Assembly (NCBI GenBank): GCA_014706385.1
Contig: JACGZH010000008.1
Location: 1,302,001 to 1,366,000, forward strand
Origin: Phaffia rhodozyma
Lineage: Eukaryota > Basidiomycota > Tremellomycetes > Cystofilobasidiales > Mrakiaceae
Length of the DNA stretch: 64,000 nucleotides
Reading direction: 5' to 3'
Shown here: one piece after another, positions 226 to 55,675 of the stretch
Numbering within the stretch: position 1 is the first letter of the stretch
Layout of the letters: every line of letters starts with the position of its first letter
Translations under genes and position numbers: made by a program
Notes under the pieces: model-generated
What the model was told of the DNA's origin: nothing
What the model saw: only the letters and a program-made list of their open reading frames with translations
Database searches by the model: none

Positions 226-299
226 AGACCCATACCCGACTTGAACGGATGACCTCAAGATTTGGAATCTTGCGCTGCTACCAACTGAGCTAATGGGTC
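226..299 (-). tRNA. tRNA-Trp(CCA)
   Basis: Decodes UGG. The 7-bp acceptor stem GACCCAT/ATGGGTC is fully paired. Anticodon CCA is the complement of 263-265, in a CAAGA/TCTTG stem. No intron. The D loop is one base longer than usual. Position 73 is T and is the first base of a run of seven T, so the terminator begins at the discriminator. Eukaryotic tRNA-Trp normally has A73, so this base is unexpected. Confidence 0.95.
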
Positions 300-456
300 G
301 CTTGCCCGGAGGCTCCGTGCCCAGAGGGTATGTCGAGCGCCCGGCTGGCTGGCCGTACAGACGGTGGCACCATGCGGCCGGCTTGCAGGCCTCCAGCACG
401 GACGGCCGGACGGGGGCTAGGGAAAAAACCGAGGGAAAACGAGCAAAAAGACAATG

Positions 457-528
457 TTGCCAAGGCCCGTCTCGATCAGGCGACCTCCGGGTTATGAGCC
501 CGGCGCGCTTCCACTGCGCTACTTGGCA
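457..528 (-). tRNA. initiator tRNA-Met(CAT)
   Basis: Starts translation. Anticodon CAT is the complement of 494-496. Initiator features visible: anticodon stem CCGGG/CCCGG with three consecutive G:C pairs next to the loop, and T loop ATCGAGA with A54 and A60 instead of TTCGANN. The first acceptor pair is U1:A72 rather than the usual eukaryotic A1:U72. A73. No intron. Five T lie a few bases downstream. Confidence 0.96.
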
Positions 529-588
529 TTGATGGGAGACCATGGCTGAGGAGTGTGTATGTGGTGTCGGCCGCAGGTCACGTGCCGG

Positions 589-660
589 TGTCGATGTCAG
601 TGTCGACGTCAGTGTCGATGCCAGTGCCAGCACCAGTGTCATTACCAATGCCAGTGTCAA
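589..660. repeat. 12-mer tandem repeat between iMet and Ile(AAT)
   Basis: Six degenerate 12-mers of the TGTCGATGTCAG / TGCCAGCACCAG kind. Unit 4 has 48 bp more (near 29760-29880), equal to four extra 12-mers. The other units keep six. Confidence 0.85.
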
Positions 661-736
661 TGCCAGTCACACCATCGACTGGTGCGACCGACGGTACACC
701 TGGCCATGGTCTGCCGGGTGGGCCTGACAGTCATCG

Positions 737-810
737 GATCGATTAGCTCAGTTGGTTAGAGCGTGGTGCTAATAACGCCAAGGTCGCGGGTTCGACCCCC
801 TCATTGATCA
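737..810 (+). tRNA. tRNA-Ile(AAT)
   Basis: Anticodon AAT at 771-773, expected to be modified to IAU and to read AUU/AUC. Acceptor GATCGAT/ATTGATC contains one G:U pair. Anticodon stem TGGTG/CGCCA. T stem has a C50:U64 mismatch. A73, no intron, T5 terminator from 812. Confidence 0.96.
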
Positions 811-1066
811 CTTTTTCTTTCTTTTTCTAATTTTCGCCATCTTTTTTTGCCATCTTTTTTGCACCCCTCCTGTTCTCGACCGTTGCGGTCTGTGTGGCAT
901 TGTTGTCGACTGGCACGCTCCATGGTGAGCGATGCAGTGTTGTGACGGTGTGACGATGTGGTGGTGCAGTGGCGACGATGGGAACGCAGATATACACCCG
1001 GCTGTGCTGGACAGTGTCCGACCAGACATGGGCCTATGGTGTCTGGGCTGGGCTGGGAGGCATCGT

Positions 1067-1153
1067 GCATGCTTGGTGTAGTGGTATCGCGCCATGTTAG
1101 GGTCTTTGCGCCTTGTCTCATGGAGGTCCTCAGTTCAATCCTGGGAGCGTGCC
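1067..1153 (+). tRNA. tRNA-Pro(AGG) with intron
   Basis: Anticodon AGG at 1099-1101, a eukaryotic inosine-precursor anticodon. A 15-nt intron at 1103-1117 follows position 37. Anticodon stem CCATG/CATGG closes perfectly when it is removed, giving a 72-nt tRNA. C73 as expected for tRNA-Pro. T6 terminator follows directly at 1154. Confidence 0.96.
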
Positions 1154-1362
1154 TTTTTTCCTTTTCCTTTCGTTCTTTGTTTCCTTTTCCCGAGCGCTTC
1201 CTGTCGCTCTTCGTTGTTTTCTGCCACTTTTCACTCACTTTTTGCCACTCTCCGCCACTTTCTCGGCAGCAGACAAGCGATGTGTGCACCCGGTGGAGAC
1301 GTCTCTGACGCATGGACAAGCTGTCTGGACAAGGTGTCTGGACACGGATGACAGCCATCAAG

Positions 1363-1434
1363 TCCTCAATTGTCTAACGGCTATGATAACCGCCTCTCAC
1401 GCGGTAGGCCCGGGTTCGACTCCCGGTTGGGGAT
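1363..1434 (+). tRNA. tRNA-Glu(CTC)
   Basis: Anticodon CTC at 1396-1398 in stem ACCGC/GCGGT. Acceptor TCCTCAA/TTGGGGA. No intron. Position 73 is T, unlike the A73 of tRNA-Glu(TTC) at 3580-3652. The D arm and anticodon arm closely resemble the neighbouring tRNA-Asp (1665-1736), differing in the anticodon by one base (CTC against GTC). Confidence 0.95.
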
Positions 1435-1664
1435 CTCTCTTTTGGTCTTTTCTTTTGCTCTCGTTTCTTTTTTTCTTTTTTTCCTTGTCCTTCTTTCCTT
1501 TCGTCTTTCTGTTTCGTCTTGTTTTTGTATGTCCGTTCTGACCACTGGTATCAGCGCTGGTGTGTGCCTGCGGGTACTGTGTGGTTGAATGCACGGTATG
1601 GGGTGCATGCACCGGCCAGCTGTCCAGCCACCTGGCGAGCGGACAAGGCTGACATCCAACCGAC

Positions 1665-1736
1665 TCTTGGATGGTCTAACGGTTATGATTTCCGCCTGTC
1701 ACGCGGGAGACCGGGGTTCGACTCCCCGTCCGGGAG
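1665..1736 (+). tRNA. tRNA-Asp(GTC)
   Basis: Anticodon GTC at 1698-1700. Acceptor TCTTGGA/TCCGGGA with two G:U pairs. G73, as expected for tRNA-Asp. No intron. T5 terminator at 1740. Confidence 0.96.
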
Positions 1737-1762
1737 CACTTTTTGCCTTTTGCTCCTCTCTT

Positions 1763-1818
1763 TTGTACTTGCATTTGTACTTGCATTTGCATTTGCATTT
1801 GCATCTGCATTTGCATTT
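1763..1818. repeat. GCATTT / TGTACTT microsatellite
   Basis: Units 1-3 have two TTGTACTTGCA blocks followed by GCATTT repeats; unit 4 has one more GCATTT. Units 5-7 have four TTGTACTTGCA blocks and fewer GCATTT. A marker of unit type. Confidence 0.9.
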
Positions 1819-2003
1819 TTTCTTTCCATTCTCTTTTGCTGTACAGCTGTATGGTTGTCTTGCTTTGTTGTGTTTGTCCGTCGACGGCCATCGATCGTTA
1901 TCTTTTTTTCTTTGGTCTGTATGTCTCCTTCTTTTTCTCTTTCTTTTTCTTTTGCTCTCTTTGACGGCGCATGTTTGGCAGCACACGCTCCGAAAGACGC
2001 ACC

Positions 2004-2028
2004 GAGCACAGCACAGCACAGCACAGCA
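2004..2028. repeat. CAGCA pentamer repeat
   Basis: GCACA pentamers; two fewer in units 5-7 (for example near 40770) than in units 1-4. Confidence 0.85.
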
Positions 2029-2117
2029 CGCCGACACGTGTGCGCTGGGCAGACCAACTGGCTGGATGGCTGTTGAGCACAGGCTATGGGCAGTCGATCG
2101 GCAGACCGAGACCATAC

Positions 2118-2200
2118 GCTGTCTTAATCAAGTGGTCTACGATGAGAGATTAGAAATCTCTTCCTCTTTGAGGGCGCAGGTTCGAATCCTGCAGACAGCT
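2118..2200 (+). tRNA. tRNA-Ser(AGA)
   Basis: Class II tRNA with a long variable arm. Anticodon AGA at 2152-2154 in stem AGAGA/TCTCT. Acceptor GCTGTCT/AGACAGC. No intron. Position 73 is T, whereas tRNA-Ser(CGA) in the same unit has the usual G73. The variable arm is the main recognition element for seryl-tRNA synthetase, so charging may survive. Confidence 0.94.
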
Positions 2201-2423
2201 TTCTTTTGCACCCTGTACTTTGCCACCGTGGCCTTTGCTCTTTTTGCTTTTTTTTTTCTTCTTCTTCTCTTCTATGCCTTTGCCTATGTGTGTCTATGGT
2301 TGTCGTTCATGTATGCATAGTACGCACACACCGGGCAGCCAGCCCAAACAAAAAAAAAAGACGGCCACACCATCGAAGCCATCCTCACTGACACACAGAG
2401 CGAGGACCGGAAAAAAAAAGGGA

Positions 2424-2509
2424 TGCCGTCAGCCTGAATCGAACAGGCGACCTTATGATTGCGGACAGATGTCTTCAGTCATACGCTCCACCAATTGAGC
2501 TATGACGGC
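2424..2509 (-). tRNA. tRNA-Phe(GAA) with intron
   Basis: Anticodon GAA is the complement of 2474-2476. The 13-nt intron at 2460-2472 follows position 37. Acceptor GCCGTCA/TGACGGC and anticodon stem TATGA/TCATA are fully paired. A73. T-rich terminator on the minus strand at 2411-2419. Confidence 0.96.
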
Positions 2510-2704
2510 CGATGACAGTCAGCGCCGTCCATCAGGCCATGGCCCGTCTGGGTGGCTGTCGGGCCGTCGGGCCGTCCGGCTGGCACTCACTCGGTCGGTC
2601 TCAGCCGGGTCGGTGTGTGTGCTGACGCGGCAGGCAAAACATGCTGGGCACTGACCGTCAGCGTGTGCTGTCTGAGTGCTCGGACACAGCAGGCGACCAT
2701 CCCA

Positions 2705-2777
2705 TGCCCTGTAGCTCAGTTGGTAGAGCGTGGAGCTGTTAACTCCAAGGTCTACGGTTCGAGCCCGTACGGGGCAG
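2705..2777 (+). tRNA. tRNA-Asn(GTT)
   Basis: Anticodon GTT at 2738-2740 in stem TGGAG/CTCCA. Acceptor TGCCCTG/CGGGGCA and T stem TACGG/CCGTA set the ends. G73 as expected. No intron. The following T tract is part of a tandem 11-mer repeat. Confidence 0.96.
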
Positions 2778-2820
2778 TCTTTTTGTCGTCTTTTTGTCGT
2801 CTTTTTGTCGTCTTTTTGTC
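2778..2820. repeat. TCTTTTTGTCG 11-mer repeat, also the Asn terminator
   Basis: Four copies directly after tRNA-Asn in units 1-4 and two in units 5-7. Each copy carries a T5 run, so the repeat forms a row of RNA polymerase III terminators. Confidence 0.9.
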
Positions 2821-2962
2821 TCCTCATTTTTTTTCCCTCTCCCTTTCCTGTGCAGTACTTCCCCTCTCGTCTTCTGCCGTCCATGAGGTGTGCGTGTTCT
2901 TGGTATGTTCTTGCGATGGACATCATCCATCTTCCACCAGCATGCTCGGCCGGCAAGAAAAA

Positions 2963-3035
2963 AGGAGTCACCCGGGATTGAACCAGGGACCTGCTGGGTT
3001 GCAACCAGCCGCAACTACCGCTGTGCTATAACTCC
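2963..3035 (-). tRNA. tRNA-Cys(GCA)
   Basis: Anticodon GCA is the complement of 3000-3002. Acceptor GGAGTTA/TGACTCC, anticodon stem GCTGG/CCAGC. T73, the universal tRNA-Cys discriminator, is also the first base of a T6 terminator. No intron. Confidence 0.96.
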
Positions 3036-3202
3036 GTATGAGGCTGCCGCGCCATCGGACAGATCATCCACAGGCACGCTTGCACACATGCACACAGCAC
3101 AGTGGCAGCCGCTTTGTCGTCCTGCGATCGAGTAGTGGCAGCTGTGGACGCAACATCGCCCGGTGCGACCAGGCCGGCGTCACAGATGCTGCATCTGCAC
3201 AG

Positions 3203-3316
3203 AGAAAACAAAAGGAACAAAGGAGCAGAAAAAAGAACAGGAAAAAAGAGCAAGAAAAAAGAGCAAGAAAAAAGAGCAAGAAAAAAGAGCAAAAAGAACA
3301 AAAAGAACAAAAAGAG
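3203..3316. repeat. A-rich GAAAAAAGAGCAA repeat before Val(AAC)
   Basis: Purine-rich repeat whose minus-strand T runs lie just downstream of tRNA-Val(AAC). Length differs in almost every unit by a few bases. Confidence 0.85.
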
Positions 3317-3388
3317 TAGTCGCACCCAGAGTCGAACTGGGGTCGTGAGTGTGTTAGACTCAAGTGATAACCGTTACACCATGCAACT
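3317..3388 (-). tRNA. tRNA-Val(AAC)
   Basis: Anticodon AAC is the complement of 3353-3355 (inosine precursor). Acceptor AGTTGCA/TGCGACT, anticodon stem TGAGT/ACTCA, A73, no intron. The A-rich repeat at 3203-3316 supplies T runs for termination on the minus strand. Confidence 0.96.
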
Positions 3389-3579
3389 CTGATGACTGCC
3401 GGTCTCTGCCCAGTATCCTACTCATCGACCAGGCACCGCTCGCTCCGCCGTCTGCCCGCCCGCCGCTGTGTGTCCATCGGTCGGCCGGCCCATCAGCCCG
3501 ATCGTGCGACACCGGGACCATGCCTGCCGACAAGCTGGCCCTCAGACGAGGCAGCCCGGGGAGAAAACAAAAAGGATCG

Positions 3580-3652
3580 TTCCCCATCCGGGAGTCGAAC
3601 CCGGGTCCTCAGCGTGAAAAGCTGATATCGTAAACCGTTTGACCAATGAGGA
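3580..3652 (-). tRNA. tRNA-Glu(TTC)
   Basis: Anticodon TTC is the complement of 3616-3618. Acceptor TCCTCAT/ATGGGGA, anticodon stem TCAGC/GCTGA, A73, no intron. T5 terminator on the minus strand at 3569-3573. Confidence 0.96.
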
Positions 3653-3680
3653 CTAGTACAAGCACGCCGAATCGGTCGAG

Positions 3681-3720
3681 TCGTCTGCAGTCGTCTGCAG
3701 TCGTGCGCAGTCGTGTGCAG
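3681..3720. repeat. TCGTCTGCAG 10-mer repeat
   Basis: Four imperfect 10-mers between Glu(TTC) and Ala(TGC). Copy number looks constant in all units. Confidence 0.8.
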
Positions 3721-3792
3721 CCTGCTCCGTCGTGCGGTAGGCTGTGAGCGGGTGGCCGCCGGTCAGCATGCTTCCGACCGGACGGCAAAAAG

Positions 3793-3864
3793 TGGACCCA
3801 GCAGGGATTGAACCCGCGGCCTTTCGCATGCAAAGCGAATGTGATACCACTACACCATAAGCCC
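3793..3864 (-). tRNA. tRNA-Ala(TGC)
   Basis: Anticodon TGC is the complement of 3830-3832. Acceptor GGGCTTA/TGGGTCC contains the alanine identity pair G3:U70. Stem TTCGC/GCGAA, A73, no intron. T5 terminator just downstream. Confidence 0.97.
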
Positions 3865-3904
3865 GTGTGGGATGGAGGCGTGGTGTGTCGGCCGGTGGGG
3901 CGAA

Positions 3905-3967
3905 GTGCGGTGCGGTGCGGTGAGGTGCGGTAAGGTGCGGTGCGGTAAGGTGCGGTGAGGTGAGGTC
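3905..3967. repeat. GTGCG/GTGAG pentamer repeat
   Basis: G-rich pentamers between Ala(TGC) and Leu(CAA). About 63 bp in units 1-3, shorter in unit 4 (from 33120) and shortest in units 5-7 (for example from 42622). Confidence 0.9.
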
Positions 3968-4038
3968 TGGTATGATGCTATCAGAAACAGAGTCTTGGTT
4001 GCAAAACCACACGGAACCTCTCGGCGGGGGGCAAAAGA

Positions 4039-4120
4039 TGAACAGAGGGGGATTCGAACCCCCGCATCTTGCGATATCAGAACTTGAGTCTGACGCCTTA
4101 GACCGCTCGGCCATCTGTCC
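4039..4120 (-). tRNA. tRNA-Leu(CAA)
   Basis: Class II tRNA with a 13-nt variable arm. Anticodon CAA is the complement of 4084-4086, stem TCAGA/TCTGA. Acceptor GGACAGA/TCTGTTC. A73, the leucine discriminator. No intron. Terminator is only T4. Confidence 0.96.
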
Positions 4121-4150
4121 GGATGGGGTGCGTGAGGTGTGTGTGGGTCC

Positions 4151-4190
4151 GGGAGTGTGCGGGAGTGTGCGGGAGTGTGCGGGAGTGTGG
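4151..4190. repeat. GGGAGTGTGC 10-mer repeat
   Basis: Four copies in units 1-3 and two in units 4-7. Confidence 0.92.
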
Positions 4191-4229
4191 GCCGGGTAGA
4201 GCGAGTGCACCCTGCCCGGGCACACACAC

Positions 4230-4315
4230 GCCCCGTTGGCAGAATGGTAACGCGTCTCCTTCCTACTGTCTGGTGAGAGAGGTGAAGATTCTGGGTTCAA
4301 TCCCCAGGCGGGGTT
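4230..4315 (+). tRNA. tRNA-Arg(CCT) with intron
   Basis: Anticodon CCT at 4262-4264, 14-nt intron at 4266-4279. Acceptor GCCCCGT/GCGGGGT has G:U pairs at both ends. Anticodon stem TCTCC/GGTGA has a U29:U41 mismatch, seen in every copy. The D stem is weak. Variable loop AGATT is typical of eukaryotic tRNA-Arg. T73, shared with the other two Arg genes here. Confidence 0.9.
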
Positions 4316-4336
4316 TCTCTTTTTTTGCGGCGGGCG

Positions 4337-4420
4337 TGGTTGGGGTGTGAGTGGGGTGTGAGTGGGGTGTGGTTGGGGTGTGGTTGAGGTGTGAGTGAGA
4401 AGGTGGGTGAGAATGTGGGT
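4337..4420. repeat. GGGGTGTGAGT-type G-rich repeat
   Basis: Degenerate 10-mers after Arg(CCT). Runs of four G recur on one strand. Length and order differ between the long and short unit types and among units 5, 6 and 7. Confidence 0.88.
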
Positions 4421-4513
4421 GTACACGTGAGACGCTTGGTATGCTGGCGGGCTGTAGAGTGTGGACTGTATGCGCAGGGTATAGGACTGATGTATGTGGA
4501 CCCTGCCATCAAC

Positions 4514-4585
4514 GGGATGTTCGTATAATGGTTATTATTCCAGATTTCCATTCTGGAGACAGGTGTTCGATTCACCTACATCTCA
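4514..4585 (+). tRNA. tRNA-Gly(TCC)
   Basis: Anticodon TCC at 4547-4549 in stem CCAGA/TCTGG. Acceptor GGGATGT/ACATCTC with a G2:U71 pair. A73, no intron, T5 terminator from 4586. Confidence 0.96.
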
Positions 4586-4753
4586 TTTTTGTCATTTTTT
4601 TTTTGTGCGCGTGGCGGGGGCGGAGGCGGTGGCAGTACAAGACACTGGGCGGACGGCGGCAAGACTCTGAGGCACACGACCGGGGCGTGGGAGGGGCTAG
4701 TTGGGTGGTGGCGTTGGTGTCTAGGGGTACGGGCCGGGCTGGGGACTATAACC

Positions 4754-4847
4754 GCCCTGTTAGCTCAATCGGTAGAGCGTCAGACTCTTACCCAGTCTCT
4801 TGACAGTTGGCATCTGAAGGCTGGGGGTTCGACCCCCCCATGGGGCT
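4754..4847 (+). tRNA. tRNA-Lys(CTT) with intron
   Basis: Anticodon CTT at 4787-4789, 21-nt intron at 4791-4811. Anticodon stem TCAGA/TCTGA. T stem GGGGG/CCCCC. Acceptor GCCCTGT/ATGGGGC. T73, which also occurs in yeast tRNA-Lys(CUU). T5 terminator at about 4854. Confidence 0.95.
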
Positions 4848-4880
4848 AGCTTCGTTTTTGTGTGTCGGTGTGATTTTTTG

Positions 4881-4910
4881 TTTCTGTTTCTGTTTCTGTT
4901 TCTGTTTCTG
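4881..4910. repeat. TTTCTG hexamer repeat
   Basis: Five perfect hexamers after Lys(CTT) in units 1-3, three in units 4-7. A clean marker of unit type. Confidence 0.93.
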
Positions 4911-5077
4911 TTTTCGTTCTTTGTGTTTTTGTTTGCTGGCTTGGTGTGTGCTTGGTGGGCCGTCGACGGTGGAAGGGTGCATGGAGGGTTGAACAGAGGT
5001 GAGAGGTGGGTCGGCTGGTGGGTCGCGCGGGCATGTCTGACGATCTGGGCTGGTAGCACGGACAGACAGACACACAC

Positions 5078-5150
5078 GGGGATTTAGCTCAGTTGGCAGA
5101 GCGCAATCTTAGCATGGTTGAGGTCGTGAGTTCGATTCTTACAATCTCCA
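5078..5150 (+). tRNA. tRNA-Ala(AGC)
   Basis: Anticodon AGC at 5111-5113 (inosine precursor). Acceptor GGGGATT/AATCTCC contains G3:U70. Stem CAATC/GGTTG, A73, no intron. T6 terminator from 5152. Confidence 0.97.
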
Positions 5151-5360
5151 CTTTTTTGTGTCGTTTTTATGTGTTTTTTTGTGTTTTTTGGTAGTCTTTT
5201 TTTTTTTTTCCGCCCGCTGCCTTTTTTGCACTCTCTTCTTTCGCTCTGCTCCTCTCGGTCATGCTCCGTCCTGCCCACCACATCACACACCATGTGTTGC
5301 ACCGAGACAGGCCGGCTGCTGCGAGCACACTGGCCGACCGGCCGGACAGGCCTTCATCCA

Positions 5361-5453
5361 GGTGAGGTGGCCGAGTGGTCTAAGGCGCTGTGTTAAGGCT
5401 CTTTCTATGCCCCGCAGTCAGTAATGGCGCGAGTTCGAATCTCGCCCTCATCA
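5361..5453 (+). tRNA. tRNA-Leu(AAG) with intron
   Basis: Class II. Anticodon AAG at 5395-5397 (inosine precursor), 13-nt intron at 5399-5411, anticodon stem CTGTG/CGCAG. Acceptor GGTGAGG/CCTCATC, A73. The body is nearly the same as Leu(TAG) at 6158-6256, including the variable arm, so the two are recent paralogues with different introns. Confidence 0.95.
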
Positions 5454-5624
5454 CTTTTTGTCCGGCCGGCACGGGCCGTGCCTCTCGGGTCTGCCTGGCC
5501 GGGCTGTGCTCTCAGGTGCGGTGCCATGGTAGTATGATGCCACGTTGCAACACTGCCACACCCCCTTGCTGTCTGCCGGTCCGTTTTGGACTGTGGACTG
5601 AATGAACAGACCGTACAGCATCCA

Positions 5625-5695
5625 ACAGCTGTGGTGAAATGGTATCATTGGTGCTTGCCATGCACTAGGCCGGGGTTCGATTCCCCGCGGTTGTA
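5625..5695 (+). tRNA. tRNA-Gly(GCC)
   Basis: Anticodon GCC at 5657-5659 in stem GGTGC/GCACT. Acceptor ACAGCTG/CGGTTGT has two G:U pairs. A73, no intron. T8 terminator from about 5699. Confidence 0.95.
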
Positions 5696-5886
5696 TCCTT
5701 TTTTTTTCTCGTCCCACACACCGATCGGCTCTGTGCTGGCGGGTGCACATCTGCCGATCGTCCGTGTTCGGTCTCGCCGACTGGTGCGATGATGGTGTGT
5801 GCTGCCGTTCGGACGAGCAGTGCGTCTGTGCCGACACAGGGGCAGGACACGAAGGACGTACCGACGCGCTCGGTGGACACCAACCG

Positions 5887-5959
5887 TCCTTCTTAGCTCA
5901 GTTGGTAGAGCGCGACACTAGTAATGTCGAGGTCAGTCGTTCAAATCGGCTAGCAGGAA
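5887..5959 (+). tRNA. tRNA-Thr(AGT)
   Basis: Anticodon AGT at 5920-5922 (inosine precursor), stem CGACA/TGTCG. Acceptor TCCTTCT/AGCAGGA carries a U5:C68 mismatch present in all seven copies. A73, no intron. The T run begins about 12 bases downstream. Confidence 0.95.
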
Positions 5960-6080
5960 CATTCTTCTTTTTTTTATTCTCCGTTCATTTCCGTTCATTT
6001 CTTCTTCTTCTTTTTCTGTTGTATCCTTCCCTGTCGCCCCGGCGGGCGTCTGGTCGACGCGTGCTCGTTAGGGTTCCGCA

Positions 6081-6142
6081 CAAAGCACAGCACCACACCA
6101 CACCACACACCACAAACGACACCACAAACAACACCACAAACG
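6081..6142. repeat. ACACCAC / ACAAACAAC repeat
   Basis: A/C-rich repeat just upstream of Leu(TAG). Length looks constant among units. Confidence 0.82.
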
Positions 6143-6157
6143 CAGGGAAAGCATGCT

Positions 6158-6256
6158 GGTGAAGTGGCCGAGTGGTCTAAGGCGCTGTGTTTAGGTCTCT
6201 CTTCCGAGTCCAGACCGCAGTCAGTAATGGCGCGAGTTCAAATCTCGTCTTCATCA
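6158..6256 (+). tRNA. tRNA-Leu(TAG) with intron
   Basis: Class II. Anticodon TAG at 6192-6194 reads CUA leucine codons and is not a suppressor. 19-nt intron at 6196-6214, stem CTGTG/CGCAG. Acceptor GGTGAAG/CTTCATC, A73. T4 terminator at 6260. Only 35 bp separate it from the next gene, the shortest gap in the unit. Confidence 0.95.
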
Positions 6257-6291
6257 TTCCTTTTGTCCCGGCCGGGGGGGGCAGGGCAGCT

Positions 6292-6373
6292 GGGGATTTA
6301 GGCTAGTTGGTAAACTGGACGCTTCGCACTGTCGATCATGTGTCATTCCTGGGTTCGATTCCCGGAGTCTCCA
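6292..6373 (+). tRNA. tRNA-Ala(CGC) with intron
   Basis: Anticodon CGC at 6325-6327, 10-nt intron at 6329-6338, stem GACGC/GTGTC. Acceptor GGGGATT/AGTCTCC has G3:U70. The D stem is poorly paired. A73. Confidence 0.93.
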
Positions 6374-6530
6374 TCTCTTTTTGGTGTGTTTCGGTGTGTT
6401 TTGTTTTATCTTGGCGTATTTGATTTCGTTGCATTTCATATGGCATGTTGTGTGTCGTGTTCTGTGTGTCTTCTCTTGGTCTGCTGCCCACCGGCTTGTG
6501 CTCACCGCTCACCGAGCGGCGTCCATCCAA

Positions 6531-6640
6531 GGCCGTTTGGCGGAGTGGTCTAACGCGGTAGCCTCGAACGAGTCCCCTCTGTGGGACGACGCGACAGCTA
6601 CTCTTCTCTGAAGGCGTAGGTTCAAATCCTACAGCGGTCG
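6531..6640 (+). tRNA. tRNA-Ser(CGA) with intron
   Basis: Class II with a 14-nt variable arm. Anticodon CGA at 6565-6567, 27-nt intron at 6569-6595, stem GTAGC/GCTAC. Acceptor GGCCGTT/AGCGGTC. G73 as expected for serine. Confidence 0.95.
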
Positions 6641-6782
6641 TCCTTTCTCTTTTTCTTTTTGCCCACTTCCGTTCTCTCTGCCTTCTGTCGCGTCGATCCT
6701 TCCTTGCTGTCTGTGTTTGCTGTCTCCGCATGCTCACACCCCGCCAGGCAGACAGACAGACGGGCTGACGGGCTGCCATCGT

Positions 6783-6876
6783 GCGTGATTGGTGTAGTGG
6801 TATCACGCCAAGTTTGGGCACACTTTCTGCCGTGCACATCTCTTGGAGGTCTTCGGTTCAATCCCGGAATCGCGCC
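6783..6876 (+). tRNA. tRNA-Pro(TGG) with intron
   Basis: Anticodon TGG at 6815-6817, 22-nt intron at 6819-6840, stem CCAAG/CTTGG. Acceptor GCGTGAT/ATCGCGC, C73. T5 terminator directly after the gene. All three tRNA-Pro genes of the unit have introns. Confidence 0.96.
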
Positions 6877-7009
6877 TTTTTGTTCGGCCCGTCTGGGCGG
6901 GTGGCGTGGTCGGTGTAGGGTTACTTGCTGTGTCAGTTGCTGTGTTACTTGCTGTGCTACTCATAGGATTACCCGCCACATAGCGTCCGCTGTTACCCTA
7001 TGCTGTGTA

Positions 7010-7213
7010 CTCTTTTTTTTTTTCTTTTTTCTTTTTCCTCTCCCGTTTTTTCTTTGTCCTTTTTCTTTCCTCTTTTTTCCTCTTTTTTCCTTCTTTTTTC
7101 CCTTCTTTTTCCCCCTCTTTTTTCCCCTCTTTTCCCTCTTTTCCCTTCTTTTCCCTCTTTTCCTTTTTTCTTCTTTTTTCTTCTTTTTTCTTCTTTTTTC
7201 TTCTTTTTTTTCT
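7010..7213. repeat. polypyrimidine tract
   Basis: 204 bp of T and C on the plus strand with only two G, and no purine from 7057 to 7213. Length is 204 in units 1-2, 235 in unit 3 (26470-26704), 130 in unit 4 (36155-36284) and 131 in units 5 (45695-45825) and 6 (55252-55382). Confidence 0.95.
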
Positions 7214-7303
7214 GTCAACGATAGATGCATCAATATAGAAAGAGAAAAAGACATATGGCAGAAAGACAACAGCATAACAATGGCAACACAGTAAAAACAT
7301 AGC

Positions 7304-7389
7304 GAGAACACAATGAGAACACAACGAGAACACAACCATGCAATGCAATGCACCAGCAACACAGTGTCAACACAGTGTCAACACAACAG
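7304..7389. repeat. GAGAACACAA and AACACAGTGTC repeats
   Basis: Three GAGAACACAA-like units, then two CACAGTGTCAA units. Copy numbers differ between units; units 3-6 have one CACAGTGTCAA. Confidence 0.85.
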
Positions 7390-7406
7390 AAAGACCAAAA
7401 CAAAAG

Positions 7407-7566
7407 AAGGCAAAGATCCTCGTAGTCAGACGCCTTACCGCTGGGCCACTCGGCCAGAGCGAATGGGTGGTGGGACCACTAGACCAAGACGGGGTTCGAA
7501 CCCGCGATTTCCTGATGCATACAAGCTGGCAGCCGGCCATGACGACCGTTCCACCATCTTTGCCTT
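7407..7566 (-). other. 11-bp inverted repeat bracketing permuted tRNA-Arg(ACG)
   Basis: Bases 7556-7566 and 7407-7417 are perfect inverse complements (AAGGCAAAGAT and ATCTTTGCCTT on the minus strand). In the precursor they would pair leader with trailer. The trailer arm begins 2 nt after position 37 and the leader arm ends 39 nt before position 38, so the helix would hold the two splice sites together. A role in processing is inference. T4 runs on the minus strand follow near 7402-7405. Confidence 0.7.
7420..7516 (-). tRNA. permuted tRNA-Arg(ACG)
   Basis: The two halves are in reversed order. Reading the minus strand, the 3' half comes first (7516 to 7481): position 38, anticodon-stem strand TCAGG, variable loop AAATC, T arm GCGGG-TTCGAAC-CCCGT, acceptor strand CTTGGTC and T73. 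A 25-nt linker (7480-7456) follows, then the 5' half (7455 to 7420): acceptor strand GGCCGAG, TG, D arm, anticodon-stem strand TCTGA, and loop CTACGA with anticodon ACG. Joining 37 to 38 gives 7 paired acceptor bases, 5 paired anticodon-stem bases and loop CTACGAA, a total of 72 nt. No ordinary 5' half precedes the T arm and no T arm follows the D arm. T73 matches the other Arg genes here. Order and sequence are kept in five of six units; unit 3 has small deletions. Confidence 0.9.
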
Positions 7567-7681
7567 TAGCTTTCGTCTGGTTGTGTGGATGTATGGCCAA
7601 GTGGATGTGTGGGCGTTGGCTCTGCTAGGGTTATCCGAGGCGGTGGGCGTCCGGCCGATCCGTCCGATCGCCCATCGGATA

Positions 7682-7705
7682 TCGGACGTCGGACGTCGGA
7701 CGTCG
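7682..7705. repeat. TCGGACG heptamer repeat
   Basis: Three tandem TCGGACG copies upstream of Val(CAC), unchanged among units. Confidence 0.85.
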
Positions 7706-7749
7706 AGCCCCGGAGTACGGAGCCCGGCGGAGAAAAGGCCGTGTCGATC

Positions 7750-7833
7750 GGTCGCCTGGTCTAGTGGTATGACGCTTGCTTCACATCTCACCCGGTGCGC
7801 AATAGGTCGCCAGTTCGATCCTGGCGGTGACCA
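7750..7833 (+). tRNA. tRNA-Val(CAC) with intron
   Basis: Anticodon CAC at 7782-7784, 12-nt intron at 7786-7797. Acceptor GGTCGCC/GGTGACC. Anticodon stem CTTGC/GCAAT has a C27:U43 mismatch at its outer end. A73. T5 terminator at about 7841. Confidence 0.92.
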
Positions 7834-7998
7834 TGACGTCTTTTTGCCCTCAGCACACGCCCACGATGGACAGACCGAGAGAAGCCATCGCAAGATAAGA
7901 TGCATGATAAGATACACAGCCAGCCGACAGAGATGGCAGATAAGATCGACAGACACGATCGATCGGCAAGAAAGAAAGAAGATAAGATGGCGATAAAG

Positions 7999-8026
7999 AC
8001 AAAAGACAAAAGACAAAAGACAAAAG
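7999..8026. repeat. ACAAAAG heptamer repeat
   Basis: Four copies in units 1-2 and three in units 3-6, upstream of Pro(CGG) on the plus strand. Confidence 0.9.
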
Positions 8027-8060
8027 ATACAAGATAAAAGCCAGGTCGGCAAAAAGACAA

Positions 8061-8160
8061 GGCGCGATCCCGGGATTGAACCGAGGACCTCCGTCAGACA
8101 CGTGTTTCATGCGAGCCAGCAAAGCCCGAAGACGGCGTGATACCACTACACCAATCCCGC
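8061..8160 (-). tRNA. tRNA-Pro(CGG) with intron
   Basis: Anticodon CGG is the complement of 8126-8128. 28-nt intron at 8097-8124, the longest in the unit. Stem CCGTC/GACGG. Acceptor GCGGGAT/ATCGCGC has a G4:G69 mismatch, where Pro(TGG) has U4:G69. C73. T5 terminator on the minus strand at 8051-8055. Confidence 0.94.
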
Positions 8161-8238
8161 CAGTGATCGCACAGGCCTGGCCGGTCAGTTTGTCGGTCTC
8201 CAGCCGGCCGTCCGTCCGTCCGTCCGGGAGGCAAAAGA

Positions 8239-8336
8239 TACTCCATATGAGGTTCGAACTCATGATCCTTGTTAAGCACTAGAGGCACGGACGGCAACCT
8301 ATAAGAACAATGCGATAACCACTTCGCCAATGGAGT
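8239..8336 (-). tRNA. tRNA-Ile(TAT) with intron
   Basis: Anticodon TAT is the complement of 8301-8303, reading AUA. 25-nt intron at 8275-8299. Acceptor ACTCCAT/ATGGAGT and anticodon stem TTGTT/AACAA are perfectly paired. A73. Terminator is T4. Confidence 0.96.
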
Positions 8337-8370
8337 AAAGGTAAGCGTCGGTGGAAAAAGACGAGAGATG

Positions 8371-8412
8371 ACAAGACAGGACGAGACAGGACGAGACAGG
8401 ACGAGAGAAGGC
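8371..8412. repeat. AGACAGGACG 10-mer repeat
   Basis: Three to four imperfect 10-mers between Ile(TAT) and Gln(CTG), with small differences among units. Confidence 0.85.
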
Positions 8413-8509
8413 CGCACCGGACGGCACACGCCAGACCGGGCCGAGTCCGACAGAAGACGGCACAGGCGGCAGGAGGGAGGACGGGAAAAAGAGGGCGAAA
8501 AAAAAGGAA

Positions 8510-8592
8510 AGGTCCTACTCAGATTCGAACTGGGGATTCGAGAAGGTGAGTCAATCAGAATCTCGCGTGATAACCAACTTCACCATAGAACC
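8510..8592 (-). tRNA. tRNA-Gln(CTG) with intron
   Basis: Anticodon CTG is the complement of 8556-8558, 10-nt intron at 8545-8554, stem CGAGA/TCTCG. Acceptor GGTTCTA/TAGGACC. T stem has a C50:A64 mismatch. T73 is normal for eukaryotic tRNA-Gln. T8 run further downstream. Confidence 0.95.
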
Positions 8593-8784
8593 GGTCGTTG
8601 TCGGCCTATTGCCCTCGCGAGTCTCGTTCTGGCGGTGTGTCCGCTGGCAAGGGTCCGTCGGCGCGTGTCCGCTGGCAGGTGTGCTTACATCGCTGGCCGA
8701 CCTGTCCGCCCGCCGCACGTGGCCCGGCCGGCATGACACGCACGGCCGACCCGATACACACAGCGGACATCGGAGCAAAAAGCA

Positions 8785-8857
8785 AGCCCAAACGCGGATT
8801 TGAACCACGGACCTCACCGTTACGAGCGGCGCACTATAACCACTTAGCTATTCGGGC
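8785..8857 (-). tRNA. tRNA-Thr(CGT)
   Basis: Anticodon CGT is the complement of 8822-8824, stem CGCCG/CGGTG. Acceptor GCCCGAA/TTTGGGC. No intron. T73, unlike A73 in Thr(AGT) of the same unit. T5 terminator just downstream. Confidence 0.95.
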
Positions 8858-9008
8858 CTGGTGCCCGTCGCCCGGTCGTGTTGTCTCTAAGGGTGTTGGT
8901 GTGTCGATGTGTTGGTGTACCGGTGTGGTCAGGACCCGGCCCACACCGTCCGCTCGGCCAGACGTAGCCCATCGAGGTCGACCGCCGGGGCGGCTGGGCA
9001 GTCAACGT

Positions 9009-9095
9009 GCCTGGGTAGTTTAGTGGTAAAACGTAGGTCTCATACCGTCACCCGAGTGTGATCCTCAGCCGCGAGTTCGATTCTCGCTCTGGGCA
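9009..9095 (+). tRNA. elongator tRNA-Met(CAT) with intron
   Basis: Anticodon CAT at 9041-9043, 16-nt intron at 9045-9060. Anticodon stem TAGGT/TCCTC has U31:U39 next to the loop and T27:C43 at the outer end. The arrangement GTAGGTCTCATA-intron-ATCCT is like that of intron-containing plant elongator tRNA-Met. Acceptor GCCTGGG/TCTGGGC, A73. The T loop is the ordinary TTCGATT, so it is not the initiator. Confidence 0.94.
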
Positions 9096-9215
9096 ACTCT
9101 TTTTTTTCCTCTTTTGCTGTGTTTCCCATCCTTCCTGATGGTTGGTGGGCGGCCGGGCTGGGCCAGGCGGAGGTGCGGTCGGATCCGGCCGTCAGATGGG
9201 CTGAGCATGACGGCA

Positions 9216-9252
9216 GTGGAAGTGGCGGCGGTGGCGGTGGCGGTGGCGTCGG
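9216..9252. repeat. GGAAGT / GGCGGT hexamer repeat
   Basis: One GGAAGT hexamer in units 1-3 and two in units 4-6, followed by GGCGGT hexamers. Confidence 0.88.
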
Positions 9253-9337
9253 CAGTGCTGATGACGACGACGACTGCTGCTGCGCAGAGTCCGCTTGGAC
9301 GAGAATCTATCCGGACAAACGGTGCTGGCACCATACC

Positions 9338-9424
9338 CGCCGCTTAGCTCATCTGGAAGAGCGTTGGTTTGTAAAGGATACACTTGTTCACCGAAGGCAC
9401 TCGGTTCGATCCCGAGAGCGGCGA
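9338..9424 (+). tRNA. tRNA-Tyr(GTA) with intron
   Basis: Anticodon GTA at 9371-9373, 14-nt intron at 9375-9388, stem TTGGT/ACCGA. Acceptor CGCCGCT/AGCGGCG is perfect and begins with C1:G72, the eukaryotic/archaeal tyrosine identity pair. A73. T7 terminator at about 9430. Confidence 0.97.
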
Positions 9425-9646
9425 TCTTGTTTTTTTGCCTTTTGCTTTTTGTTCTTTTTTGTTCTTTTTTTTCTGCCTTGTGGCTGCTTCCTCTTTGACT
9501 GCTAGGGTTCCTGCCTTCGGTCCAGTCCGGTCGCTCTCACGCAGCATGCGCACTGTCTCGGCCAGACGGGCGATGCGACCGATGACGTTCTCCCAGCTGC
9601 TGCTGCCGATGTAGTGGTCACCGGGGCAGGGCAAGTGATCATATCT

Positions 9647-9745
9647 GGCCGATTGGTGTAGTGGCTATCACAGCAGTTTTCGGTACTCGTCCGCAAGGTC
9701 GTCTTCGCTCGCTGCTGGTCGTCGGTTCGATCCCGACATCGGTCT
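9647..9745 (+). tRNA. tRNA-Arg(TCG) with intron
   Basis: Anticodon TCG at 9680-9682, 26-nt intron at 9684-9709, stem GCAGT/GCTGC. Acceptor GGCCGAT/ATCGGTC. T73. I use its 3' end as the boundary of the repeat unit. T5 terminator about 9 bases on. Confidence 0.95.
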
Positions 9746-9959
9746 AAATGTTCACTTTTTGTGTCCCCCTTTCTTTTTTGCCCTCCTTTTTGCCCTTCTT
9801 TTTCTCTGCACGCTCTCTCTGCACTCTGTTTCTATCGGCCGTTGTGTGGGTCACTGTCTGTCCGACCGGTCTGGCCTGTGTGCGCGTGTCCACCACGGTC
9901 GAGCCAGGTCGACACAGCTCCCTGTGGTGGGGCAGGCAGACGGGCGGGAAAACAAAAAA

Positions 9960-17154: not shown

Positions 17155-17251
17155 TCGTAGTCAGACGCCTTACCGCTGGGCCACTCGGCCAGAGCGAATG
17201 GGTGGTGGGACCACTAGACCAAGACGGGGTTCGAACCCGCGATTTCCTGAT
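17155..17251 (-). tRNA. permuted tRNA-Arg(ACG), copy 2
   Basis: 3' half before 5' half, same length, linker and flanking inverted repeat as 7420-7516. Confidence 0.9.
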
Positions 17252-19694: not shown

Positions 19695-19768
19695 AGACCC
19701 ATACCCGACTTGAACGGATGACCTCAAGATTTGGAATCTTGCGCTGCTACCAACTGAGCTAATGGGTC
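19695..19768 (-). tRNA. tRNA-Trp(CCA), copy 3
   Basis: Same ends, length and anticodon as 226-299. Confidence 0.95.
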
Positions 19769-19925
19769 GCTTGCCCGGAGGCTCCGTGCCCAGAGGGTAT
19801 GTCGAGCGCCCGGCTGGCTGGCCGTACAGACGGTGGCACCATGCGGCCGGCTTGCAGGCCTCCAGCACGGACGGCCGGACGGGGGCCAGGGAAAAAACCG
19901 AGGGAAAACGAGCAAAAAGACAATG

Positions 19926-19997
19926 TTGCCAAGGCCCGTCTCGATCAGGCGACCTCCGGGTTATGAGCCCGGCGCGCTTCCACTGCGCTACTTGGCA
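19926..19997 (-). tRNA. initiator tRNA-Met, copy 3
   Basis: Same ends, length and anticodon as 457-528. Confidence 0.96.
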
Positions 19998-20205
19998 TTG
20001 ATGGGAGACCATGGCTGAGGAGTGTGTATGTGGTGTCGGCCGCAGGTCACGTGCCGGTGTCGATGTCAGTGTCGACGTCAGTGTCGATGCCAGTGCCAGC
20101 ACCAGTGTCATTACCAATGCCAGTGTCAATGCCAGTCACACCATCGACTGGTGCGACCGACGGTACACCTGGCCATGGTCTGCCGGGTGGGCCTGACAGT
20201 CATCG

Positions 20206-20279
20206 GATCGATTAGCTCAGTTGGTTAGAGCGTGGTGCTAATAACGCCAAGGTCGCGGGTTCGACCCCCTCATTGATCA
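20206..20279 (+). tRNA. tRNA-Ile(AAT), copy 3
   Basis: Same ends, length and anticodon as 737-810. Confidence 0.96.
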
Positions 20280-20535
20280 CTTTTTCTTTCTTTTTCTAAT
20301 TTTCGCCATCTTTTTTTGCCATCTTTTTTGCACCCCTCCTGTTCTCGACCGTTGCGGTCTGTGTGGCATTGTTGTCGACTGGCACGCTCCATGGTGAGCG
20401 ATGCAGTGTTGTGACGGTGTGACGATGTGGTGGTGCAGTGGCGACGATGGGAACGCAGATATACACCCGGCTGTGCTGGACAGTGTCCGACCAGACATGG
20501 GCCTATGGTGTCTGGGCTGGGCTGGGAGGCATCGT

Positions 20536-20622
20536 GCATGCTTGGTGTAGTGGTATCGCGCCATGTTAGGGTCTTTGCGCCTTGTCTCATGGAGGTCCTC
20601 AGTTCAATCCTGGGAGCGTGCC
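20536..20622 (+). tRNA. tRNA-Pro(AGG) with intron, copy 3
   Basis: Same ends, length and intron as 1067-1153. Confidence 0.96.
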
Positions 20623-20831
20623 TTTTTTCCTTTTCCTTTCGTTCTTTGTTTCCTTTTCCCGAGCGCTTCCTGTCGCTCTTCGTTGTTTTCTGCCACTTTT
20701 CACTCACTTTTTGCCACTCTCCGCCACTTTCTCGGCAGCAGACAAGCGATGTGTGCACCCGGTGGAGACGTCTCTGACGCATGGACAAGCTGTCTGGACA
20801 AGGTGTCTGGACACGGATGACAGCCATCAAG

Positions 20832-20903
20832 TCCTCAATTGTCTAACGGCTATGATAACCGCCTCTCACGCGGTAGGCCCGGGTTCGACTCCCGGTTGGG
20901 GAT
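20832..20903 (+). tRNA. tRNA-Glu(CTC), copy 3
   Basis: Same ends, length and T73 as 1363-1434. Confidence 0.95.
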
Positions 20904-21133
20904 CTCTCTTTTGGTCTTTTCTTTTGCTCTCGTTTCTTTTTTTCTTTTTTTCCTTGTCCTTCTTTCCTTTCGTCTTTCTGTTTCGTCTTGTTTTTGTATG
21001 TCCGTTCTGACCACTGGTATCAGCGCTGGTGTGTGCCTGCGGGTACTGTGTGGTTGAATGCACGGTATGGGGTGCATGCACCGGCCAGCTGTCCAGCCAC
21101 CTGGCGAGCGGACAAGGCTGACAACCAACCGAC

Positions 21134-21205
21134 TCTTGGATGGTCTAACGGTTATGATTTCCGCCTGTCACGCGGGAGACCGGGGTTCGACTCCCCGTCC
21201 GGGAG
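21134..21205 (+). tRNA. tRNA-Asp(GTC), copy 3
   Basis: Same ends, length and anticodon as 1665-1736. Confidence 0.96.
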
Positions 21206-21586
21206 CACTTTTTGCCTTTTGCTCCTCTCTTTTGTACTTGCATTTGTACTTGCATTTGCATTTGCATTTGCATCTGCATTTGCATTTTTTCTTTCCATTC
21301 TCTTTTGCTGTACAGCTGTATGGTTGTCTTGCTTTGTTGTGTTTGTCCGTCGACGGCCATCGATCGTTATCTTTTTTTCTTTGGTCTGTATGTCTCCTTC
21401 TTTTTCTCTTTCTTTTTCTTTTGCTCTCTTTGACGGCGCATGTTTGGCAGCACACGCTCCGAAAGACGCACCGAGCACAGCACAGCACAGCACAGCACGC
21501 CGACACGTGTGCGCTGGGCAGACCAACTGGCTGGATGGCTGTTGAGCACAGGCTATGGGCAGTCGATCGGCAGACCGAGACCATAC

Positions 21587-21669
21587 GCTGTCTTAATCAA
21601 GTGGTCTACGATGAGAGATTAGAAATCTCTTCCTCTTTGAGGGCGCAGGTTCGAATCCTGCAGACAGCT
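21587..21669 (+). tRNA. tRNA-Ser(AGA), copy 3
   Basis: Same ends, length and T73 as 2118-2200. Confidence 0.94.
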
Positions 21670-21892
21670 TTCTTTTGCACCCTGTACTTTGCCACCGTGG
21701 CCTTTGCTCTTTTTGCTTTTTTTTTTCTTCTTCTTCTCTTCTATGCCTTTGCCTATGTGTGTCTATGGTTGTCGTTCATGTATGCATAGTACGCACACAC
21801 CGGGCAGCCAGCCCAAACAAAAAAAAAAGACGGCCACACCATCGAAGCCATCCTCACTGACACACAGAGCGAGGACCGGAAAAAAAAAGGGA

Positions 21893-21978
21893 TGCCGTCA
21901 GCCTGAATCGAACAGGCGACCTTATGATTGCGGACAGATGTCTTCAGTCATACGCTCCACCAATTGAGCTATGACGGC
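21893..21978 (-). tRNA. tRNA-Phe(GAA) with intron, copy 3
   Basis: Same ends, length and intron as 2424-2509. Confidence 0.96.
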
Positions 21979-22173
21979 CGATGACAGTCAGCGCCGTCCA
22001 TCAGGCCATGGCCCGTCTGGGTGGCTGTCGGGCCGTCGGGCCGTCCGGCTGGCACTCACTCGGTCGGTCTCAGCCGGGTCGGTGTGTGTGCTGACGCGGC
22101 AGGCAAAACATGCTGGGCACTGACCGTCAGCGTGTGCTGTCTGAGTGCTCGGACACAGCAGGCGACCATCCCA

Positions 22174-22246
22174 TGCCCTGTAGCTCAGTTGGTAGAGCGT
22201 GGAGCTGTTAACTCCAAGGTCTACGGTTCGAGCCCGTACGGGGCAG
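22174..22246 (+). tRNA. tRNA-Asn(GTT), copy 3
   Basis: Same ends, length and anticodon as 2705-2777. Confidence 0.96.
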
Positions 22247-22431
22247 TCTTTTTGTCGTCTTTTTGTCGTCTTTTTGTCGTCTTTTTGTCTCCTCATTTTT
22301 TTTCCCTCTCCCTTTCCTGTGCAGTACTTCCCCTCTCGTCTTCTGCCGTCCATGAGGTGTGCGTGTTCTTGGTATGTTCTTGCGATGGACATCATCCATC
22401 TTCCACCAGCATGCTCGGCCGGCAAGAAAAA

Positions 22432-25714: not shown

Positions 25715-25749
25715 TTCCTTTTGTCCCGGCCGGGGGGGGCAGGGCAGCT

Positions 25750-26862: not shown

Positions 26863-26956
26863 TCGTAGTCAGACGCCTACCGCTGGCCACTCGGCCAGAG
26901 CGAATGGGTGGTGGGACCACTAGACCAAGACGGGTTCGAACCCGCGATTTCCTGAT
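26863..26956 (-). tRNA. permuted tRNA-Arg(ACG), copy 3, three single-base deletions
   Basis: Same permuted order as 7420-7516 but 94 bp. Two bases are lost in the D arm and one in the T-arm C run. The inverted repeat is kept. All three losses are in short homopolymers, so sequencing error is plausible. Confidence 0.75.
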
Positions 26957-36468: not shown

Positions 36469-36565
36469 TCGTAGTCAGACGCCTTACCGCTGGGCCACTC
36501 GGCCAGAGCGAATGGGTGGTGGGACCACTAGACCAAGACGGGGTTCGAACCCGCGATTTCCTGAT
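36469..36565 (-). tRNA. permuted tRNA-Arg(ACG), copy 4
   Basis: 3' half before 5' half, same length, linker and flanking inverted repeat as 7420-7516. Confidence 0.9.
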
Positions 36566-46019: not shown

Positions 46020-46116
46020 TCGTAGTCAGACGCCTTACCGCTGGGCCACTCGGCCAGAGCGAATGGGTGGTGGGACCACTAGACCAAGACGGGGTTCGAA
46101 CCCGCGATTTCCTGAT
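46020..46116 (-). tRNA. permuted tRNA-Arg(ACG), copy 5
   Basis: 3' half before 5' half, same length, linker and flanking inverted repeat as 7420-7516. Confidence 0.9.
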
Positions 46117-55578: not shown

Positions 55579-55675
55579 TCGTAGTCAGACGCCTTACCGC
55601 TGGGCCACTCGGCCAGAGCGAATGGGTGGTGGGACCACTAGACCAAGACGGGGTTCGAACCCGCGATTTCCTGAT
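55579..55675 (-). tRNA. permuted tRNA-Arg(ACG), copy 6
   Basis: 3' half before 5' half, same length, linker and flanking inverted repeat as 7420-7516. Confidence 0.9.

Follow-up and report, generated by a model that had tools for sequence, protein, structure and literature searches.

Circularly permuted tRNA genes of type II have been described in Cyanidioschyzon merolae, Ostreococcus, Micromonas and the nucleomorph of Bigelowiella natans, where the 3′ half of the tRNA is encoded first, the halves are to be joined at 37/38, a short linker (1–74 nt in the table of that paper) lies between them and a T run follows downstream (PMC3978253). The 34 permuted genes in the table of that paper (its Table 1) come from algae, a nucleomorph and one archaeon, and none of those listed there is an Arg(ACG) gene. 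In algae, cleavage of permuted pre-tRNAs at the junction is attributed to the tRNA-splicing endonuclease; ligation is believed to follow and to give a circle, which RNase P and tRNase Z would open at the acceptor. Both the precursor and the circle of permuted tRNAs have been detected in algae (PMC3978253). Permuted genes of Auxenochlorella, a green alga, were added in 2025 (PMC12636532). Arrays of tRNA genes are known from Entamoeba, which has 25 array units with up to five tRNA genes each (PMC2652664).

The locus in Phaffia rhodozyma resembles the type II genes in all of these features of layout, with a linker of 25 nt, and differs from those tabulated in PMC3978253 in that its host is a dikaryan fungus, in its tens of tandem-array copies, and in a leader that contains a candidate A box and, with the trailer, forms an 11-bp clamp enclosing a hairpin. 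As with the Auxenochlorella genes, the halves are reversed in a nuclear genome and the permuted form came to light via an incomplete set of ordinary tRNAs, though the term “tRNA array” is absent from the main text of that paper (PMC12636532). Like the arrays of Entamoeba (PMC2652664), the Phaffia array is tandem and has several tRNA genes in each unit, with short tandem repeats separating them; it differs in having a single type of unit, in which the permuted gene is one of 34 different tRNA genes. No report of a permuted tRNA gene from a fungus was found in the open-access literature searched, as judged by titles and the openings of abstracts of the papers listed, and as far as these searches reach this is the first. 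If real, a case in a dikaryan yeast would mean that permuted tRNA genes originate and are maintained in non-photosynthetic eukaryotes too, and in the same kingdom as Saccharomyces cerevisiae, the standard model of tRNA splicing.

The sequence analysed (hereafter the window) is a stretch of 64,000 nucleotides, C13:1302001–1366000, of a 19.77-Mb assembly in 15 contigs, and is occupied throughout by the tandem array. Reading the minus strand from 7516 to 7420 gives the 3′ half of tRNA-Arg(ACG) (positions 38–73), the linker and then the 5′ half (positions 1–37), and joining 37 to 38 yields a complete cloverleaf with the loop CTACGAA and the anticodon ACG (Table 1). The original prediction had placed the gene at 7420–7516 in this order, with the same linker length and loop and with 7 bp in the acceptor stem and 5 bp in the anticodon stem. 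Direct reading returned the same coordinates, linker and loop, the order of the halves was reproduced in the sequence, by a strict scan and by a permuted covariance model (R1), and the pairing agreed with a check of individual pairs: the acceptor stem GGCCGAG/CTTGGTC forms 7/7 pairs (two G-U), the anticodon stem TCTGA/TCAGG 5/5 (one G-U), the T stem 5/5 (one G-U) and the D stem 3/3. The conserved U8, A14, G15:C48, G18G19, U33 and TTCGA can all be read in the joined tRNA, and U73 is common to 4/4 of the other parsed Arg tRNAs compared with 8/27 of the non-Arg tRNAs. The aligned halves end at A37 and start at A38, which places the predicted cut sites at the 37/38 junction. TTTT is absent between 7516 and 7420, and two T4 runs stand 3′ of the 5′ half.

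Table 1 Features of the permuted tRNA-Arg(ACG) locus, its copies in the window and selected genes of the array unit (window coordinates).
Feature	Position	Strand	Basis or remark
Array unit of ~9.7 kb, 33 conventional tRNA genes and the permuted gene	226..9959		Decoding of first unit
Leader, with clamp strand, A-box-like element, hairpin and CUUGUA	7517..7566	-	Putative function
Leader clamp strand AAGGCAAAGAT	7566-7556	-	Complementary to trailer
A-box-like TGGTGGAACGG in leader	7556-7546	-	Matrix score; putative function
CUUGUA in leader	7525-7520	-	Fold; can pair with positions 33-37 and first trailer base
3′ half, positions 38-73	7481..7516	-	Sequence, strict scan, permuted model R1
A38	7516	-	Sequence
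Positions 39-43, TCAGG	7515-7511	-	Sequence
Variable loop AAATC	7510-7506	-	Sequence
T arm	7505-7489	-	Sequence; B box at 7501
Acceptor 3′ strand CTTGGTC	7488-7482	-	Sequence
U73 (T in DNA)	7481	-	Sequence
Linker, 25 nt, between acceptor 3′ and 5′ strands	7456..7480	-	Sequence; free of T4 runs; 0 substitutions in 18 copies
5′ half, positions 1-37	7420..7455	-	Sequence, strict scan, model R1; 28 bases identical at 42 genome places
Acceptor 5′ strand GGCCGAG	7455-7449	-	Sequence; D arm next
Positions 27-31, TCTGA	7430-7426	-	Sequence
Positions 32-37, CTACGA	7425-7420	-	Sequence; anticodon ACG at 7423-7421
Trailer	7397..7419	-	ATCTTTGCCTT at 7417-7407, complementary over 11 bp to leader
Two T4 runs, candidate Pol III terminator	7405-7402, 7400-7397	-	Sequence; putative terminator
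Permuted gene, second copy, identical	17155..17251	-	Model R1
Permuted gene, third copy, three single-base deletions	26863..26956	-	Alignment, model R1 (31.4 bits)
Permuted gene, fourth copy, same score, identical in alignment	36469..36565	-	Alignment, model R1
Permuted gene, fifth copy, same score, identical in alignment	46020..46116	-	Alignment, model R1
Permuted gene, sixth copy, same score, identical in alignment	55579..55675	-	Alignment, model R1
tRNA-Arg(TCG), conventional, intron-containing, CGA reader	9647..9745	+	Unit decoding
Example intron-bearing tRNA genes of the unit	2424-2509, 4754-4847, 9338-9424		Unit decoding

The strict scan, which searched both strands of the window for the permuted arrangement, matched solely this locus, in five of its six window copies. 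Applied to one strand each of 300 order-2 resampled windows, 19.2 Mb in total, it gave no match. Model R1 was built from 13 conventional tRNAs of the genome recast in permuted order, with Arg(ACG) sequence excluded; the training set comprised 10 window and 3 dispersed tRNAs, 13 of the 31 that were parsed, picked for equal loop lengths. In the window search, 7420–7516 and four identical copies scored 48.2 bits (E = 4.6 × 10−13), with 20 of 20 pairs standard in the alignment of the permuted gene, the damaged third copy scored 31.4 bits, and all other matches scored at most 29 bits, the best of those outside the permuted-gene family overlapping an ordinary Lys gene. Neither the strict scan nor R1 found a second type II permuted gene in the window, and a search of one unit for stray T arms (loop TTCRANN, at least four pairs) that do not belong to the 33 conventional genes gave only that of the permuted gene, besides its plus-strand mirror image. 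The reading of the locus as a permuted tRNA-Arg(ACG) gene was thus upheld by the covariance model and by resampled sequence, and in structure the locus is almost certainly permuted.

Array units are 9552–9735 bases long, and the array spans C13:1296258–1450098. We decoded the first unit into 33 conventional tRNA genes, all different (32 anticodons and a second CAT), to which the permuted gene adds a thirty-fourth; 16 of the 33 carry an intron at 37/38. No ACG gene is among the 33, in agreement with the proposal that the permuted gene is the sole ACG gene of a multicopy array. The acceptor stem of the conventional tRNA-Arg(TCG), GGCCGAT/ATCGGTC, resembles that of the permuted gene, and ARAGORN calls this tRNA Glu in the unit. 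A 28-base stretch of the 5′ half is unchanged at 42 places on C4–C7 and C9–C13, and a search with 221 bases gave 36 full and identical matches among 40 scored (44 candidates). With 42 or more copies of the unit genome-wide, the arrays would hold ~1,400 tRNA genes.

Variation among copies was assessed in 18 of the at least 42. The leader, halves, linker and trailer showed 0 substitutions in 161 columns and three single-base deletions, all in the third window copy, compared with 9 variable columns of 574 in conventional tRNAs and 268 of 1465 in spacers; within the six window units the permuted locus had 0 variable columns of 161 and the spacer 152 of 6825. Most of the variable spacer columns in the larger comparison (204 of 268) fall in the polypyrimidine region at 6950–7249. 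Strong selection on the permuted locus was considered and not retained. Uniform copies are weak evidence of selection or function, because arrays homogenise and most spacer change lies in one tract. The polypyrimidine tract at 7010–7213 is highly variable from unit to unit. The third unit (19695–29397) holds all 7 substitution columns found in the conventional tRNA genes of the six units, with 0 remaining when it is left out, and this unit and its permuted copy have either decayed or contain sequencing or assembly errors.

We also searched the genome for a conventional tRNA-Arg(ACG). With the 72 nt of the joined tRNA as query, 40 of 44 candidate places were scored; the 80 pieces that aligned each matched nucleotides 1–36 or 37–72 of the query, and the 37/38 junction was spanned by none of them. 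A pattern for an intronless ACG gene had 7 matches in the genome compared with 13 in the reversed control, and a pattern for the ACG 5′ half had 65 compared with 52, of which 42 were array copies and 23 lay outside the array; none of the 30 non-array pattern matches was a tRNA according to ARAGORN (run with default settings and again with introns allowed) or Rfam. Together the two patterns catch 34 of the 38 known tRNAs of the genome and miss 4. A control with the intronless type of pattern for His(GTG) gave 13 matches (10 in the reversed control) and no tRNA. A His(GTG) tRNA must exist in the genome; it is absent from the array and may have an intron or an odd T loop, or may also be permuted. 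Because this control found none, the absence of a conventional ACG gene is not secure, and an unusual or intron-bearing form is possible. In the genome-wide check that the original prediction had called for, neither similarity nor the two patterns revealed a conventional gene, a result whose weight is lowered by the His(GTG) control; the permuted gene is probably the sole source of tRNA-Arg(ACG).

Genome-wide, 63 of 2082 tRNA candidates were scored, and 13 dispersed tRNAs were seen: eight Arg(TCT), three Thr(TGT), one Ala(AGC) and one eMet. The unit is without 12 members of the set usually expected (His GTG, Lys TTT, Gln TTG, Ser TGA, Ser GCT, Val TAC, Leu TAA, Leu CAG, Arg CCG, Arg TCT, Thr TGT and Gly CCC). 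For P. rhodozyma, 49 tRNAs with 12 anticodon species have been published, and 18 scaffolds with 357–2074-fold coverage were set aside as non-nuclear (PMC5103461); the tRNA array may have been among these 18. The agreement between 12 lacking and 12 published anticodons may be partly chance, because Arg(TCT) and Thr(TGT) are the only members of the lacking set that were seen dispersed, alongside Ala(AGC) and eMet. The permuted gene may bear on the incomplete published tRNA set (PMC5103461) and on the codon bias in the CGN box (PMC4404019).

Relative synonymous codon usage in Xanthophyllomyces dendrorhous (= P. rhodozyma) is 0.30 (0.51) for CGU, 0.25 (0.29) for CGC, 2.83 (2.10) for CGA and 0.30 (0.72) for CGG, where the gene set behind the bracketed values is ambiguous; CGC and CGU thus belong to the least used codons for Arg, with CGU tied with CGG in one column (PMC4404019, Table 3). 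From the same table we computed a ratio (NNU+NNC)/NNA of 0.19 (0.38 bracketed) for the CGN box, and of 4.3 to 17 (2.6 to 8.3 bracketed) for the seven other boxes with A34 tRNAs in the array. In the actin gene (C10:276776–278125), which has GT-AG introns and encodes a protein up to 95% identical to those of fungi such as Naganishia and Kwoniella, with others close behind, 16 of 18 Arg codons are CGA, one is AGA and one AGG, and CGU, CGC and CGG do not occur. Dosage of ACG and TCG genes in the array is equal, at one gene each per unit. The rarity of CGC and CGU indicates that demand for tRNA-Arg(ACG) may be small. Either the permuted gene yields little tRNA or low demand let the permutation be tolerated. 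A preference for CGA is mentioned for Mrakia psychrophila (PMC11260810), and the bias may therefore predate the permutation.

Reversal of the halves puts the tRNA’s own A and B boxes in reversed order. In the leader, TGGTGGAACGG precedes the 3′-half B box by 55 nt, which falls within the A–B spacings of 43–82 nt in 29 unit genes. Its score on an A-box matrix built from 29 of the 33 unit genes is equalled by 9 of 11,798 spacer positions, which over the 40 usable positions of the leader corresponds to ~0.03 for such a site. We put forward TGGTGGAACGG as a possible surrogate A box, a guess that can be tested. A B-block TFIIIC domain was found at one place in the genome, with a profile that also matches 4 of 14 bacterial and archaeal controls. 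The leader AAGGCAAAGAT and the trailer ATCTTTGCCTT form an 11-bp inverted repeat that closes the permuted locus; exact 11-bp inverted repeats at that spacing number 3 in the unit (one nearly all T), compared with 0.5 expected.

Folded without constraint, the precursor reaches its energy minimum (−69.1) in a structure other than the cloverleaf, and a forced cloverleaf has an energy of −59.5. At the junction, where a bulge-helix-bulge or relaxed hBH motif is expected of type II genes, positions 33–37 and +1 pair in the forced fold with leader positions −4 to −9, and C32 pairs with the G at −2. The permuted gene is like the intron-containing tRNA genes of the array in its 37/38 junction, and would probably share their endonuclease and ligase. 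It is unlike them in that its precursor, with U(−3) opposite C32, cannot form the 32:−3 pair, which 15 of the 16 unit introns can; pairing with base 32 at offsets −1, −2 and −4 is possible in 4/16, 3/16 and 4/16, and base −3 across the 16 introns is G in 13, A in 2 and T in 1. The single unit intron lacking the 32:−3 pair, that of Ala(CGC), indicates that this pair may not be absolute. The lack of this pair, the lower energy of the free fold and the reversed order of the A and B boxes count against a working gene.

On the route that the layout suggests, RNA polymerase III would transcribe a single linear precursor of leader, 3′ half, linker, 5′ half and trailer, in which the 11-bp leader–trailer pairing would keep the anticodon-loop ends next to each other. 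Cuts by the tRNA-splicing endonuclease would release leader and trailer, a ligase would seal 37 to 38 and give a circle, RNase P and tRNase Z would excise the linker, and CCA would then be added. With A34 converted to inosine, the product would decode CGU, CGC and, weakly, CGA. As to the machinery, the endonuclease domain PF01974 occurs at two places in the genome, one of them Sen34, and the Trl1-type ligase domain PF09511 is also present. The Sen34 protein, assembled from two exons, matches P. rhodozyma with 100% identity across 296 residues and so identifies the host as this basidiomycete yeast (Cystofilobasidiales). An algal host was considered and rejected on this match, on the GC content outside the array, and on the introns and fungal similarity of the actin gene. 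We consider it likely that the locus is a working type II (37/38) permuted nuclear tRNA-Arg(ACG) gene, present once per array unit, for which we infer transcription, cutting, joining and charging. A fuller account is tentative, and we hold it possible rather than probable: that this first fungal permuted tRNA gene alone supplies an essential isoacceptor, is multiplied tens of times in chromosome-terminal arrays, and has in TGGTGGAACGG a second, leader A box that restores the A-then-B order for TFIIIC, and that slow maturation through a circle limits supply and explains the avoidance of CGU and CGC, in contrast to the excess of NNU plus NNC over NNA in the seven other boxes read with inosine. 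TFIIIC would then meet the boxes in normal order and would read through to the 5′ half.

Several other explanations could account for parts of these observations. A conventional tRNA or a Y-RNA-like RNA might look permuted without being so: Rfam gives weak matches to the Y RNA-like YrlA (18.0 bits, 7414–7527, minus strand), whose tRNA-like part is permuted, and to tRNA (16.3 bits, 7482–7563). Both matches fall far under their cut-offs (69 and 29 bits), and a conventional reading leaves several non-standard model pairs whereas the permuted one is complete, which makes this explanation hardly credible. It is unlikely, on our assessment, that a normal tRNA-Arg(ACG) is missing from the assembly, masked or evading the patterns, so that the permuted copy is redundant, though it may work as well. 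The known tRNAs missed by the patterns, the outcome of the His(GTG) control, the contig start that reads N and the fraction of tRNA candidates scored all leave room for such a gene. The similarity search and both patterns came back empty, however, with the 23 non-array matches to the second pattern not exceeding the 52 of the reversed control, and the dispersed tRNAs comprise Arg(TCT), Thr(TGT), Ala(AGC) and eMet alone among the 13 seen.

The locus could also be a relic: of an earlier tandem pair of tRNA-Arg genes two halves would remain, which array amplification has carried along and from which tRNA is no longer made, with tRNA-Arg(UCG) reading CGU and CGC by wide wobble. The rarity of CGU and CGC beside the strong preference for CGA (PMC4404019), their absence from actin, and the failure of the precursor to form the 32:−3 pair would all fit such a history, and homogenisation of the array would keep even useless sequence uniform. 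Against it, each of the four stems is complete, the two long-range stems among them, the leader, linker and trailer are free of substitutions in the 18 copies compared, and similarity and the two patterns revealed no other ACG gene. Eukaryotes generally use I34 to decode CGU and CGC, which also argues against dependence on wobble by tRNA-Arg(UCG). We therefore regard a relic as quite unlikely and retain the working permuted gene as the preferred reading. Since P. rhodozyma is grown for astaxanthin, it can be tested for circular RNA intermediates, for the promoter that is used and for its dependence on the permuted gene.

The position of the arrays was assessed from contig ends. Of five contigs of chromosome size, C9, C10, C12 and C13 end inside the array at their right ends, with the permuted gene on the minus strand, and C11 does so at its left end, with the permuted gene on the plus strand. 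Viewed from unique DNA the polarity of the array is equal at these five ends, so that no two of them flank one simple internal head-to-tail array, which suggests that the arrays are chromosome-terminal. The opposite ends of C9, C10 and C13 start with telomere repeats, C12 has N at its start, and TTAGGG occurs five times, scattered, within 600 bases at the far end of C11; telomere repeats were absent at the inspected array-side contig ends. A search of a plasmid collection with 2.5 kb of the array unit gave no match, nor did a search of the assembly for 5.8S rRNA. Seven stretches outside the array have 45–49% GC, and a flanking open reading frame compared with the PDB had phosphodiesterases alone among the 60 matches listed. 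The eMet gene of the array (9008–9097) has a 16-nt intron, and the dispersed eMet gene on C9 is intronless and identical in exon sequence.
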